A stretch of 31,191 bases of DNA from a virus. The notes under the pieces are model-generated. The model saw only the letters and a program-made list of their open reading frames with translations. It had not been told where the DNA came from and ran no database searches. Shown piece after piece: positions 6,229 through 30,018 of this stretch (the first letter of the stretch is position 1; each line of letters begins with the position of its first letter). The DNA lies in IMG/VR virus record IMGVR_UViG_3300042507_000342, positions 1 to 31,191 of that record; one strand, 5' to 3'. Position numbers and translations under genes: made by a program.

Positions 6229-7647
6229 TTAAAATTTAGCTTCTTCAAATAAATTCTTTAATTGCTTTAGTGCTTCGTCTCCAGAATTTAATCCTAGATT
6301 CTGATAAGCCCTAAGCTCATCATAAGAATCAGCGATTCGATTGGTAGTCACATCCACATAGCGATCAATAGTGCAAGTCTCCCCATCTCTGTTTTTAAGG
6401 ATCACATAGTTTAGGATATTATCGTCCGGTCCTTTGGCTGTATTGTTAGCCCTGGCGTCTGTGTACTTGTAGTAATCGTCGCGATATAAACCGATCACAG
6501 CAATGGCATCCTGCTCGACATTCCCAGAGCTTCTAATATCTGATAGCTGTGGAAGTCTTGAGGACCTTCCCTCGATTCCTCTAGATAACTGAGACAAAGC
6601 GATGATCGGAATCTTCAGCTTCCTGGTTAGCTTCTGAATCTTATTGGATACAGAAGAAACCTGAGCAAAGTCTGACTGGTCCTTTAGCTGATTGTCTCTA
6701 ATTAGTTGCAGATAGTCGATGACTACGATGTCAATCTTATTCCGTTTGGCTTCAGATGTCAGAATCATGGACAGATAGTTTATGTCTCTATTATCAGAGT
6801 CATAGAAGAAGATCGGAAGCGATTTAAGGATCGAAGCGTTTGAGTTCCTGATTTTTAGAATGTCATCTGGCTTCACTCGGTTAGCTTTTAGATCACTGTA
6901 TTTGTAGTCGTGATTCTCTGAGCTAATAAGTCGAAACATTAGCGACTCTTTAGGCATCTCTAGTGAAAGGAATAGAACTCGCTTGCCTGATTTCGCTGCA
7001 CTCTTAGCGTGTTGAAGTCCTGCGATAGTCTTGCCCATACCTGGACGCCCAGCGATTACCGTCATTCCTTCCTGGAATCCTCCTAGGATATAGTTCAAAT
7101 CCCTAGATCCGGTGTCGATACCTGAGAACTTAATCTTCCCAGCGTTAGCTTCTAGCTTATCGATGACATGATCATAAACTGAGGCAATGTCAAACACCTC
7201 AGAGGATTCGATTGATCGCTCTAAGCTATCCATCTCCTTGGTAATTATCGTCTGCAAGTCAGAGACTTCCTTGTTATCCAGGATTGCAGTCTGAATCTTG
7301 AAGGCTAAATCGTGGAATCTTCTCTTTCCTTCTGTCTCTTTTAGCTGATAGCAGGATTCTTCTAGGTTAATCAATCGGTCAGGCATTAGTTTCAGGACCA
7401 ATTCAGCCGAAATTCCTTTTTCTTTTTCTTTGCTTTTAAGGACTCTAAATATATCCGCCCTAGTGATTCTCTTATCTTCTAGGGATAGTTCCTTAAATGC
7501 AAGAAATGACGCCTTAAATAAAGCGTCTGTGAAAGATTCTTCACTGACTAATTTATTAGCTTCACTAAATAGGTGAGGATAAGCTAGTAAGTGTGAGACG
7601 ATGTCACGCTCCAGGTGCACATCATTTAGATTAAGTTTTATTGCCAT
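6229..7647 (-). CDS. dnaB: Replicative DnaB-like helicase
   Basis: 472 aa. The N-terminal helical domain (about 1-110) is followed by a RecA-like motor with Walker A GRPGMGKT (200-207) and Walker B VVIDYLQL (308-315). ALSQLSR (350-356) and LSDIRSSGNVEQDA (368-381) complete the DnaB signature. It is a hexameric 5'-3' helicase that should unwind phage DNA at the fork. It overlaps the end of the initiator gene by 10 bases, a usual initiator-helicase pairing. The ATG is preceded by ATACCAAACGA. Length is normal for phage DnaB. Confidence 0.95.
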   Translation of the reverse strand: MAIKLNLNDVHLERDIVSHLLAYPHLFSEANKLVSEESFTDALFKASFLAFKELSLEDKRITRADIFRVLKSKEKEKGISAELVLKLMPDRLINLEESCYQLKETEGKRRFHDLAFKIQTAILDNKEVSDLQTIITKEMDSLERSIESSEVFDIASVYDHVIDKLEANAGKIKFSGIDTGSRDLNYILGGFQEGMTVIAGRPGMGKTIAGLQHAKSAAKSGKRVLFLSLEMPKESLMFRLISSENHDYKYSDLKANRVKPDDILKIRNSNASILKSLPIFFYDSDNRDINYLSMILTSEAKRNKIDIVVIDYLQLIRDNQLKDQSDFAQVSSVSNKIQKLTRKLKIPIIALSQLSRGIEGRSSRLPQLSDIRSSGNVEQDAIAVIGLYRDDYYKYTDARANNTAKGPDDNILNYVILKNRDGETCTIDRYVDVTTNRIADSYDELRAYQNLGLNSGDEALKQLKNLFEEAKF

Positions 7648-8327
7648 TCGTTTGGTATTATAGGTTTGTCGTTCAAAGCTAATTGATTAACTGGACTTTT
7701 CAAATTTTGTATTTCATCATTGAAACATTTGCCATTAAGATAGGTCAGGGGATTCTTTCTATACTGCAAGTCTGGATTTGCTTGGACGTAGAACTTTACG
7801 TTCGCTAGAATCTTCTGAACCTCCTGATCTGTCAATTTACTCCAGACCTTTTCAGTCTTTGCTCTATCCACTTTCTTGTTATACTCATTCCAGAAAATTT
7901 CAAACTCATCTTTGTATTTTATTTCATTTACTTTACTTTCCTTTACTTTAGGAGTGTTACGAACGTGTTCCGAACGCGTTACATTTTCGCTAAGTTGCTG
8001 ATTTTCACGCCATTCTAAAATTCGTTTTGCATTTTTTTCTTTTTTAATTTGATACTTTTCACTAAAGTTTAGCAATTGTTTGTTAAAAGTCTCACCATTA
8101 TTCGAAGAAATCAAATCTATTTGCTCCATAAATGACCAGCATTTTTCTAGTTTTTTACCTACGTTTAGCTGGTGCTTTAGGATGTTAGTCTTGATTGGTT
8201 TCTCTTGCAAAGCTAGCTTCTCTAGGATCGTGTAAAATAATCCAAGACCTTCGTATCCAAACTCGAGATAAAGCTCTGTGATCTTCTCATCATTGAATGA
8301 GTTGGAATCATGTAAAAAGTATTTCAT
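7638..8327 (-). CDS. Replication initiator/organiser, DUF4373-like
   Basis: 229 aa from the ATG at 8327. The open frame continues upstream to a GTG at 8432, but that stretch is a structured leader and not coding. Residues 1-60 (KYFLHDSNSFNDEKI, FGYEGLGLFYTILEKLAL) match the Lin1244/Lin1753-type N-terminal domain (DUF4373), a winged-helix DNA-binding module. A polar linker of about residues 100-145 follows. The C-terminal part has FEIFWNEYNKKVDRAKTEKV and NPLTYLNGKCFNDEI, like helicase-loader/replisome organiser tails. The linker-coding DNA holds tandem repeats that may be the origin. The gene lies directly downstream of the kissing-loop leader. Confidence 0.8.
   Translation of the reverse strand: MKYFLHDSNSFNDEKITELYLEFGYEGLGLFYTILEKLALQEKPIKTNILKHQLNVGKKLEKCWSFMEQIDLISSNNGETFNKQLLNFSEKYQIKKEKNAKRILEWRENQQLSENVTRSEHVRNTPKVKESKVNEIKYKDEFEIFWNEYNKKVDRAKTEKVWSKLTDQEVQKILANVKFYVQANPDLQYRKNPLTYLNGKCFNDEIQNLKSPVNQLALNDKPIIPNEWQ
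7921..7986. other. Candidate replication origin inside the initiator gene
   Basis: Two 10-bp direct repeats, CGAACGTGTT (7960-7969) and CGAACGCGTT (7971-7980), lie 11 bp apart, one helical turn. A degenerate third copy sits at 7949-7958 in the same register. Beside them are two TTTACTTTA copies (7927-7935, 7942-7950) in a pyrimidine/AT-rich tract that could unwind. Phage lambda has the same plan: iterons plus an AT-rich tract within the linker-coding part of gene O. Function is inference. Confidence 0.45.
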
Positions 8328-8335
8328 TTTAAAAT

Positions 8336-8373
8336 AAAAAAAAGCCAGTCTGCGTAGGAGTGCAAATCTGGCT
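8336..8373 (-). terminator. Rho-independent terminator in front of the initiator gene
   Basis: On the minus strand AGCCAG (8373-8368) pairs with CTGGCT (8348-8343). Inside it TTTGC (8366-8362) pairs with GCAGA (8353-8349) with one G-U pair and one bulged A. The loop is ACTCCTAC (8361-8354) and eight T follow, the first of them overlapping the stem (8343-8336). It ends nine bases before the initiator ATG, so it should act as an attenuator or as the 3' end of a small RNA. Confidence 0.75.
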
Positions 8374-8425
8374 CTGGTTTTTAAACCGGTAAACAACCCA
8401 AGAACTCCTACCCTCTTGGCTTGTT
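8336..8425 (-). ncRNA. Structured leader or small RNA with complementary hairpin loops
   Basis: About 90 nt between a promoter and the initiator gene. Hairpin 1 pairs AACAAGCCAAGA (8425-8414) with TCTTGGGTTGTT (8403-8392), 11 of 12 positions, with loop GGGTAGGAGT. Hairpin 2 is a short GGTT/AACC stem (8387-8376). Hairpin 3 is the terminator with loop ACTCCTAC. The loops of hairpins 1 and 3 are perfectly complementary over 8 nt (8404-8411 with 8354-8361), so they can kiss. The predicted transcription start falls at the base of hairpin 1. I recognise no known RNA family. No good reading frame is present apart from an implausible GTG extension of the initiator. Confidence 0.65.
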
Positions 8426-8426
8426 G

Positions 8427-8463
8427 TGTCACAAATATATCTAAATCTGTGACATCCTACAAA
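8427..8463 (-). promoter_or_regulatory. Bacteroidota-type promoter with overlapping operator-like inverted repeat
   Basis: Minus strand TTTG (8463-8460), 20-nt spacer, TATATTTG (8439-8432): a near-consensus TTTG-N19/20-TAnnTTTG promoter of the Bacteroidota primary sigma factor. A perfect 7-bp inverted repeat TGTCACA (8427-8433) / TGTGACA (8448-8454), centres 21 bp apart, covers the -7 box and spacer. It looks like a site for a dimeric regulator. It should drive the leader RNA and the replication genes. Confidence 0.65.
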
Positions 8464-8651
8464 TCATTTAAAAGATTTTCTAGCCTCATGATCTCCGCCT
8501 CAGCTTCACTGATCTTATCAAGAATCAAATCGAACGCTTTGACGTCTGGATTATAGTACTTCATGATCTGGCTGTATTCATTTAGATCGATTTTACGGTG
8601 CGCTATTTGTACGTTCACCACTGCAAGAAAGCATCTGTCTTCTAGTGTCAT
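8457..8651 (-). CDS. Small hypothetical protein
   Basis: 64 aa. Helical, with a coiled-coil-like acidic end (LDKISEAEAEIMRLENLLNDL trimmed at the stop). The ATG overlaps the next upstream stop as ATGA, and its 3' end contains the -33 box of the replication promoter. The final stretch has a leucine heptad feel, so it may dimerise. No known family; not obviously a member of the paralogue array beside it. Confidence 0.65.
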   Translation of the reverse strand: MTLEDRCFLAVVNVQIAHRKIDLNEYSQIMKYYNPDVKAFDLILDKISEAEAEIMRLENLLNDL

Positions 8652-8848
8652 TGTCTTTCTTTTATGTGACTAACCACCTCGCGCCAATAGGTGCAATCTA
8701 GACCGTCGATTATTCTGTTTTTAATGATCAGCCTGGAGTTTTCTAATGCCTCCTCTAGGACGCTCTTCATGTGGATCTTACCGTATTGCTTGAGGTGTGT
8801 GCCTGCAATATAGTCGATTATATCTTCTGCTTTCTCCTTCGCTGTCAT
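8648..8848 (-). CDS. Tandem paralogue 1, small helical protein
   Basis: 66 aa. It shares with the next three genes the start MTxKxKAxxI, a middle helix, and the end pattern YWREVVSHI. The family resembles small phage proteins of unknown role with an N-terminal helix and a C-terminal YWxEV helix. It is joined to both neighbours by ATGA overlaps. The middle is the most diverged of the four, having lost the Ala/Cys-rich core. Confidence 0.7.
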   Translation of the reverse strand: MTAKEKAEDIIDYIAGTHLKQYGKIHMKSVLEEALENSRLIIKNRIIDGLDCTYWREVVSHIKERQ

Positions 8849-9033
8849 ATCATTCCTAGGGCATAGACTTCAAAGCGTACCTCCTGCCAATAGGCAGAAT
8901 CTTCCTCGTAGTCAGTTTTCTCATCTATGATTTCAAATACTGCAATCCCGGCGCACTGCTTAGCGATGTCAAAATCTCCGGTAGCCTGGTAAAATCTGCG
9001 GACTAGGTCCTTTGCTTTTTCTTTCGGTGTCAT
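8845..9033 (-). CDS. Tandem paralogue 2, small helical protein
   Basis: 62 aa: MTPKEKAKDLVRRFYQATG, a core helix QCAGIAVFEIIDE, then SAYWQEVRFEV. This copy is closest to the consensus of the array, and its EIIDE core recurs as DEIL or AEIV in its neighbours. Function unknown. The stop is coupled to copy 1, and one base separates it from copy 3. Confidence 0.7.
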   Translation of the reverse strand: MTPKEKAKDLVRRFYQATGDFDIAKQCAGIAVFEIIDEKTDYEEDSAYWQEVRFEVYALGMI

Positions 9034-9034
9034 G

Positions 9035-9277
9035 TTAATATAGGTCTTCGTTAAATCTGTCTGCTCTTGCTTCGTGTCTTCCGCTTCTCATATCCATTAT
9101 AATATCCCGGACTTCATGCCAATAATCAAAGGCTTGTTTGCTATTAACATTTGGAGACATGAAATTAAGTATTTCATCAATACATAAACAAGCGCAAAGT
9201 CTTGTCTGGTCAAAGTCCATTGTAAAATCCAATGTATACTTCCTAATTAGCTGGTCTGCTTTCTGTTGTGGTGTCAT
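9035..9277 (-). CDS. Tandem paralogue 3, small helical protein with extra tail
   Basis: 80 aa: MTPQQKADQLIRKY, core LCACLCIDEIL with three Cys, then FDYWHEVRDIIMDM. It has an additional charged tail of about 16 residues (RSGRHEARADRFNEDLY) missing from the other copies. The Cys-rich core may be structural. It follows copy 4 after three bases. Confidence 0.7.
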   Translation of the reverse strand: MTPQQKADQLIRKYTLDFTMDFDQTRLCACLCIDEILNFMSPNVNSKQAFDYWHEVRDIIMDMRSGRHEARADRFNEDLY

Positions 9278-9280
9278 GGC

Positions 9281-9472
9281 TTATAGATTGATTATGTCCT
9301 CTCTTAATTCTGCCCAATAGCTGAGGTCTAAGTCTCCAGCGTGTATCGCTTCCATGACAATCTCCGCGCCTAGGATAGCTGAGGCAATGGCCTCCTCTTT
9401 GTTTTTCTTGATCTGTGGATGCGCTTCCTGGAAACGCTTCACTAGAGTGCTTGCAAATTGTTTTCTTGTCAT
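9281..9472 (-). CDS. Tandem paralogue 4, small helical protein
   Basis: 63 aa: MTRKQFASTLVKRFQEA, core EAIASAILGAEIVMEAI, then LSYWAELREDI. It is the first of the four to be transcribed. Its ATG is preceded by AACCAAGTA, a variant of the recurring pre-start element, and by a 7-bp hairpin. A candidate -7 box lies about 45 bases upstream. Function unknown. Confidence 0.7.
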   Translation of the reverse strand: MTRKQFASTLVKRFQEAHPQIKKNKEEAIASAILGAEIVMEAIHAGDLDLSYWAELREDIINL

Positions 9473-29268: not shown

Positions 29269-30018
29269 ACGCTTTTTTCATTTGTTCGCGATCGTGCGCG
29301 TTTTTACTCTTTAAATAAGCCAGGTCATTAAGAGCCTGAAGTGTAGGCAAGTTATAAACCTCGTCTAGTTTTATTTTTTCGTGTTCAGCGATGAGGGTAG
29401 CTTGGTAAATCCATCCATAGACACGCATAAAGCTGTCACCGTCATCTCTGCCTCTTGTGTTGTCATTCCCCCCTTCATCATTTCCTCCTTGAAATAATCC
29501 GCTAAACTCCTTATCGAGTCGCTGAATACTTGACAAAAAAAAACCATGCTACCATAAACCTGCTCGAATGGCGCTTCTAGTAAATCTTGAGCGTATTCGT
29601 CATGCTTACTTGCATCGTACTTAGCAACCTTCCAACCTCTCCAAGTTAGTTTCATTGGCATTACCATTGAAGCGGCGATCTTATGTATATTCATCGCGAC
29701 ATCGGTAGTAAAGAATTTAGTTTCTAGGTATCTTGAATAAGGAAGTTTCCTAATATCATAAATACATTTATATCTTTTCTTGCCTAATTTAATAAAATCA
29801 ACTGTCGTAGGAGTTGGCTCCGTGTCAGTAATGAATTTAATTTTTTCTAGCTTAGCTCCTAACTCTTTAATAGTTAAAGAATCAATTTGGTTTTCTGTTT
29901 GGTAGGACAGAATTGCCAAAGATTTTACAGCGACGTCTAGCTCTGTCAGCCCTTCGGTTTTCTGAAGGAGATTCTGAAGCTGGATCCACTGCCATACGGT
30001 TACATCTTTCCAAGTCAT
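29255..30018 (-). CDS. Tail assembly chaperone, frameshifted long form (gpGT-like)
   Basis: Reading from 30018, the first frame ends at 29371 (215 aa). A -1 shift on TTTTTTT (29542-29536) joins it to the frame ending at 29255, giving 254 aa. The heptamer is in the correct phase: GTT TTT TTT then TGT, a U_UUU_UUU site. The -1 frame continues GLFQGGNDEGGND and a conserved end (VYGWIYQATLIAEHEKIKLD, LAYLKSKNAH). Siphophages use such a shift (lambda G/GT) to make a small amount of the long form, which bridges the tube protein and the tape measure. Confidence 0.75.
29371..30018 (-). CDS. Tail assembly chaperone, short form (gpG-like)
   Basis: 215 aa: WKDVTVWQWIQLQNLLQK, LDVAVKSLAILSYQTENQID, MNIHKIAASMVMPMKLTWRG, then a frame-0 end (YFKEEMMKGGMTTQEAEMTV). 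This is the unshifted product of the frameshifting pair. It lies just after terL and should coat the tape measure during tail assembly. Ratio control comes from the slippery site at 29536-29542. Confidence 0.75.
   Translation of the reverse strand: MTWKDVTVWQWIQLQNLLQKTEGLTELDVAVKSLAILSYQTENQIDSLTIKELGAKLEKIKFITDTEPTPTTVDFIKLGKKRYKCIYDIRKLPYSRYLETKFFTTDVAMNIHKIAASMVMPMKLTWRGWKVAKYDASKHDEYAQDLLEAPFEQVYGSMVFFCQVFSDSIRSLADYFKEEMMKGGMTTQEAEMTVTALCVSMDGFTKLPSSLNTKK
29535..29543 (-). promoter_or_regulatory. Programmed -1 frameshift slippery site
   Basis: A run of nine T on the minus strand. In frame it reads GTT-TTT-TTT-TGT, so the heptamer T-TTT-TTT (29542-29536) lies in the X-XXY-YYZ phase. Slipping back one base reads TTG-TCA-AGT into the second open frame. 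Both frames beyond the site encode plausible protein. Confidence 0.75.

Follow-up and report, generated by a model that had tools for sequence, protein, structure and literature searches.

Between the promoter and the replication genes of the window (i.e. all 31,191 nucleotides analysed here, positions 1 to 31,191 of virus record IMGVR_UViG_3300042507_000342), a non-coding leader RNA is predicted in which the loops of two hairpins are complementary to each other, and this loop-loop contact is real and conserved in related phages. The sequence evidence points to an undescribed switch or sensor controlling viral replication. Such a leader, with a 5' hairpin and a 3' terminator hairpin whose loops are complementary over 8 nt, had been proposed by the first-pass annotation, and the predicted promoter, fold and terminator (Table 1) support it, GUAGGAGU facing ACUCCUAC in the fold. 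The two hairpins stand as claimed, while the description lacked a small hairpin of 4 bp between them (H2), as well as the conserved 1x1 mismatch and the 8-nt loop that the minimum free energy (MFE) structure gives H1. The U-tract ends 8 nt before the initiator ATG (8327), instead of the nine bases stated. The fold of 8425-8336 (-) has an MFE of -33.4 kcal/mol (z = -4.4), and none of 200 shuffled sequences is equally stable. An alternative pairing of the 3' arms of H1 and H2, seen by eye, was rejected, as it is not conserved in L008 and L167. The annotation had recognised no known RNA family, and Rfam 15 likewise matched none at gathering score or at E<=10, c4 (RF01695) included (the best sub-threshold score was 20.4 bits, versus a cut-off of 80).

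Table 1. Features of the leader region and the adjoining replication genes, in positions of the window
Feature	Positions	Strand	Details
Hairpin H1	8392..8425	-	12 pairs; folding and covariation
Loop A (H1)	8404..8411	-	GGUAGGAG within GUAGGAGU; complementary to loop B
Mini-hairpin H2	8376..8387	-	GGUU/AACC; folding
Terminator hairpin H3	8341..8375	-	folding and covariation
Loop B (H3)	8354..8361	-	ACUCCUAC; complementary to loop A over 8 nt
Terminator U-tract	8336..8343	-	U8; folding
-7 promoter element	8432..8439	-	TATATTTG; Bacteroidota TAHHTTTG; box at -12 to -5; predicted +1 = 8427
Perfect inverted repeat	8427..8454	.	TGTCACA-N14-TGTGACA; spans promoter/-7 box; possible repressor operator
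Replication initiator	7638..8327	-	N-terminus like Lin1244_N/DUF4373; PHROG replication initiation protein
Replicative helicase	6229..7647	-	DnaB-type; next operon gene; PF03796, 1.8e-61

The putative -7 element fits the Bacteroidota consensus with its first T at -12 (PMC6847099), so that the RNA is expected to start two bases before H1, and in 59 of 72 distinct copies the base of H1 falls within +1 to +3 relative to that start. The inverted repeat recurs in the close relatives L002, L146 and L244 (and, with one change, in L001), and the leader promoter probably has a repressor besides. Downstream, the initiator matches PHROG replication initiation (2e-14) and, just short of the cut-off, Pfam DUF4373/Lin1244 (E = 4.9e-5). 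Other genes in the window encode a terminase, portal, tail fibre, endolysin and RusA, while the scanned proteins gave no recognisable integrase or repressor. Positions 8648-9277 hold three consecutive small ORFs (66, 62 and 80 aa) that are paralogous at 33-35% identity (lowest E 1e-8) and have no Pfam match, and which the start of 9281-9472 resembles.

That the loop complementarity is hard to explain by chance, as the annotation had argued, is borne out by a scanner for terminator hairpins with a loop complementary to that of an upstream hairpin, which at a score of at least 57 found 192 elements in 2.2 Mb of related loci and none in an equal amount of dinucleotide-shuffled sequence. As this scanner itself required complementarity, a covariance model was then built from which the loop pairs were omitted. 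It gave 100 full-length forward matches (59 distinct), and loss of complementarity, which was looked for in these relatives, did not occur: in 100 of 100 copies the two loops can form 7 bp or more. Across 68 distinct copies, all 476 loop-loop cells are Watson-Crick (cells that do not count as separate events, many loci being near-duplicates), with seven positions paired in 68/68, and the three central pairs of the seven vary on both sides (A-U/G-C/C-G, G-C/A-U and G-C/U-A). Covariation, proposed by the annotation as a check, was found in stems and loops against a tree-aware null that is R-scape-like, not R-scape itself: E < 0.01 for loop pair 21-79, 0.11 for 22-78 and 1.7 for 23-77, with E < 0.01 for the best H1 pairs and 0.03 for the best H3 pair. 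Of the 12 top-scoring column pairs in these 68 copies, 10 belong to the structure. In an alignment of 35 sequences, 99.3% of cells pair and 18 pairs change on both sides, which none of 500 shuffles reaches, whereas control structures slid along the same alignment pair in only 35-51% of cells and none equals the real one (the alignments were in part structure-guided). H2 covaries too, to GGUA/UACC in L235 and L273 as read from the alignment. Outside the loop-closing pair, stem cells hold 22 G-U versus 1 A-C, an asymmetry which argues that RNA of the minus strand is the functional form. Since the loops vary and yet stay complementary, it appears that the pairing rather than the loop sequence is being read, and by RNA rather than by protein.

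Going beyond the first-pass annotation, four or more initiator families have the architecture in common, which also exists in versions of unrelated sequence and, in two relatives, includes a third loop copy at the start codon. A scan of viral contigs with the initiator gave 80 loci, the upstream DNA of which was taken regardless of the RNA, and it shows the same architecture with different loop pairs. A DNA pattern made from the H2-H3 part finds the RNA independently of the gene; pattern matches without H1 stand before unrelated genes and were set aside as chance. The initiators that follow the RNA are of four kinds (with the N-termini MKYYLHDSNSFNDEK, MEKEAFYFPHFCNARHDRK, MAAFRKISVSFW and MAKLKILNKYATVP), and the RNA is therefore not tied to a single protein. 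It usually lies 15-20 nt from the ATG, although one small ORF or HNH gene sometimes intervenes. The proportion of non-redundant upstream regions with a kissing leader (score of at least 48) is 53/67 for MKYY-type, 63/70 for MEKEA-type, 30/54 for MAAFRK-type (where the AT-rich L416 is probably chance) and 16/16 for MAKLK-type initiators, while L057, L242, L274, L382, L383 and L398-L407 are copies missed by the cut-off or the strict promoter rule. A scanner for compound terminators proved too permissive and a promoter-anchored one was used in its place, which at a score of at least 55 found 276 elements versus 0 in shuffles (359 loci, overlapping and repetitive); in shuffles of the last locus set, a score of 48 was reached in 3 of 249 loci and 55 in 2 of 249. 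AT-rich, low-scoring loop pairs from the scanners were treated as chance.

In divergent relatives the leaders are built in another way and their complementary loops have other sequences, with about 25 such pairs in total. In the type II leader, H1 has the loop CTCACTAC and a compound terminator presents GTAGTGAG, with further pairs being CTCTCGAC/GTCGAGAG, CTTCTCAC/GTGAGAAG, CTCCTTAC/GTAAGGAG and GTTCTCAC/GTGAGAAC. From H1 to the terminator, L231/L254 and L260 differ in exactly four bases, which make up two compensatory loop pairs. Type III (L056 and L067) has the pairs AACACAC/GTGTGTT and CAGCAC/GTGCTG and an extra hairpin, A', that follows the terminator and touches the ATG (CCTAA-AACACAC-TTAGG and TCTAA-ACAGCAC-TTAGA); the two phages are 85% identical in this DNA, and the differences between them in A, B and A' are concerted. 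L199 combines GGAGTAAC/GTTACTCC with a second A-like segment, and other pairs are AACCAGCGAC/GTCGCTGGTT (L057), GGTGGAAC/GTTCCACC (L329), ATGGTAC/GTACCAT (L342) and, below the cut-off and by eye, GTTGCAG/CTGCAAC (L398 group) and GTCGCAT/ATGCGAC (L404). The six type-I loop pairs are largely orthogonal, with cognate pairing at -8.5 to -10.7 kcal/mol and other combinations mostly weaker than -5.5, although non-cognate GTCGGAG with CTCTGAC equals a cognate pair in strength through G-U. A role of AGGAG in loop A as a Shine-Dalgarno sequence was dropped, as most other loop types have no AGGAG; Bacteroidota mRNAs are also without Shine-Dalgarno sequences (PMC6847099).

The phages belong to an uncultured group, with all but a few of the loci coming from metagenomes, and its likewise uncultured host is probably a member of the Bacteroidota, judging by promoter type and initiator relatives. 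Neither BLASTN against deposited phages nor a plasmid search gave a match, and protein searches found only distant DUF4373 initiators and terminase/helicase relatives, all below 60% identity, which means that there is no cultured relative among them. Searching genome contigs with the initiator alignment yielded only 4 loci, without type-I RNA. Initiator relatives lie in Spirosoma and Hymenobacter contigs, with two more in MAGs labelled Deltaproteobacteria and Syntrophaceae, for which reason the Bacteroidota host is no more than probable.

Given the order of promoter, 90-nt leader, intrinsic terminator, initiator and helicase, the simplest reading, and quite a probable one, is that the leader is a transcription attenuator of the replication operon; the general plan of intrinsic-terminator attenuators (promoter, short leader, GC-rich hairpin with U-tract, then gene) is found here. 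Transcription would begin at the base of H1, and most transcripts would stop at H3, giving an RNA of ~90 nt with loops A and B, while read-through would give the initiator and helicase mRNA; use of the promoter and termination at H3 are presumed from their sequences. In the nascent RNA, B would pair first with loop A in cis, which is favoured by proximity, thereby hindering closure of H3 and favouring read-through. Once terminated RNAs have accumulated (i.e. with many genomes present), their A and B loops would occupy those of new transcripts, so that H3 folds freely and the operon is switched off. Replication would in this way be under negative feedback, through copy number or through time after infection. 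The full mechanism (attenuation plus feedback by terminated leaders) is put forward tentatively, at slightly below an even chance. Cis pairing alone does not exclude H3, whose lower 7 bp can form while the loop is bound, which makes antitermination by strain a guess. By a rough count, a collinear H1-kiss-H3 stack of ~32 bp would span near 90 Angstrom, against perhaps 65 for the linker with H2 formed, and this strain suggests that cis pairing and full folding compete (a possible antitermination step), or else that one copy contacts another. A' has been seen in only two independent phages and would be present in read-through mRNA only, which is best explained by B acting on A'. The concerted change of A, B and A' would suit a diffusible B with several A targets, and compensatory loop changes can also have a neutral origin.

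It is conceivable, though rather doubtful, that the leader is both sensor and target, with genomes being counted or kin recognised through loop pairing of identical transcripts, and that selection drives the loops apart into types deaf to one another, i.e. an RNA incompatibility code without antisense gene or repressor protein. In any case, these structured RNAs are undescribed, stand at the first replication step of a large group of uncultured phages and have a loop contact that covaries unusually clearly. If the feedback is true, phages without an evident repressor would use RNA alone to set the dosage of replication. The loop pairs that occur naturally would also be a ready-made set of orthogonal attenuators, and replication timing in such phages becomes directly testable in a cell-free assay.

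As for known systems, the best reading is that the leader works like P4 CI RNA or pT181 attenuation while being a member of neither. In P4, the CI RNA from the leader base-pairs with seqA on its upstream side and seqC on its downstream side, which halts transcription of the replication genes (PMC4825925). Here, too, a phage leader stands before replication genes, and a regulator derived from it would pair with complementary segments of the same leader (A:B in all copies; A, B and A' in L056/L067, where the A-B-A' order has the same logic as seqA/seqB/seqC of the P4 leader). Unlike in P4, where a stable, processed CI RNA ends nascent transcription in trans in the lysogen, loop B is carried by an intrinsic terminator and the promoter is of Bacteroidota type. 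The likeness to P4 is one of layout, and no lysogeny genes were recognised in the scanned proteins. In pT181, attenuation depends on an antisense RNA made separately and on a 5' hairpin that contains an antiterminator (PMC4878617). The repC/repR attenuators of pT181/pIP501 share with the present leader the terminator in an initiator leader, control of initiator supply and loop-loop recognition, but there the antisense RNA is a separate transcript of the opposite strand, fully complementary to the 5' part of the leader, whereas here both loops lie on one transcript and are complementary over only 7-10 nt. For the present leader, conservation and the G-U asymmetry point to the sense strand. The pT181 type of antiterminator, which captures the terminator's 5' arm, is absent from it, only the loops being complementary and the predicted fold having H1 and H3 together. 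In P1/P7 heteroimmunity, c4 RNA acts through loop recognition (PMC12197685). It resembles the leader as a short phage RNA whose loop sets the specificity of immunity, but c4 targets ant mRNA and the leader has no Rfam match. Loop-loop contacts of 7-8 bp occur in replication control by ColE1 RNA I/II and R1 CopA/CopT. The contact described here is similar, although theirs involves two RNAs from opposite strands, followed by an extended duplex or Rop-stabilised complexes. The titles and abstracts found by searching the open-licence literature name no such RNA in Bacteroidota phages.

The P4 and c4 precedents raise the question of a type-specific exclusion or immunity RNA, by which the terminated RNA of a resident or earlier phage silences the replication genes of newcomers that share its loop type. 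The occurrence of several mutually orthogonal loop types within otherwise near-identical leaders, and the joint change of A, B and A', would fit this, but the scanned proteins include no recognised integrase or repressor, the commonest loop type is common to many lineages, and the RNA model had no match in 395 Bacteroidota genomes (a weak search, without positive control), so that this explanation is considered unlikely. An equally improbable one is that the contact acts purely in cis, making a compact, stable RNA or an element that binds RNA polymerase or protein (for nuclease resistance, HK022 put-like antitermination or protein autoregulation), without RNA-RNA regulation in trans. The perfect retention of A:B on one molecule and the conservation of H2 and the 1x1 mismatch agree with it. 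However, variation of the loops with pairing kept makes a protein reading their bases unlikely, initiator families swap freely, A' past the terminator would be superfluous for a compact leader, and the collinear stack would strain the linker, by the crude estimate above.

The unit is complete from promoter to terminator, and with another small ORF or HNH gene sometimes lying before the initiator, it could also be an independent small RNA that acts mainly on other host or phage targets, the initiator being merely the next gene. Its near-constant leader position in the replication operon across four initiator families makes this very unlikely, and outside the RNA the loop octamer GTAGGAGT has a single further copy in the window (29807-29814 (+), versus 0.54 expected by chance), which was rejected as a trans target because it is at chance level. 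That the element works as DNA (e.g. as origin hairpins), for which its position next to replication genes might speak, or is a chance or neutral fold, is extremely improbable in view of the 22:1 asymmetry, the fixed promoter distance and the one-sided T-tract, and of the absence of comparable elements from the shuffles.

Kissing leaders also occur away from the initiator. L056 (2130-2215) and L067 (2254-2337) have a second, different one (GTTACTAC/GTAGTAAC and CTCTTCAC/GTGAAGAG), lying three genes before the initiator and ahead of a helicase-like and a probable DNA methyltransferase gene (named by eye); it seems, therefore, that the device is not restricted to initiators. In L083 (3072-3158), a kissing-type leader with CTGCAAC/GTTGCAG lies directly 5' of a probable HNH-type endonuclease gene (by eye), and in L201 (2403-2484) GTGCAGA/TCTGCAC may represent yet another type of leader, ~0.5 kb upstream of the initiator. 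Two different initiator-plus-RNA loci were found in IMGVR_UViG_3300027969_000114 (L007/L090/L268; 59,277 bases), which is about as long as two phage contigs from sample 3300009164 put together (L006 and L095, ~29.6 kb each) and is probably two phages joined in assembly.
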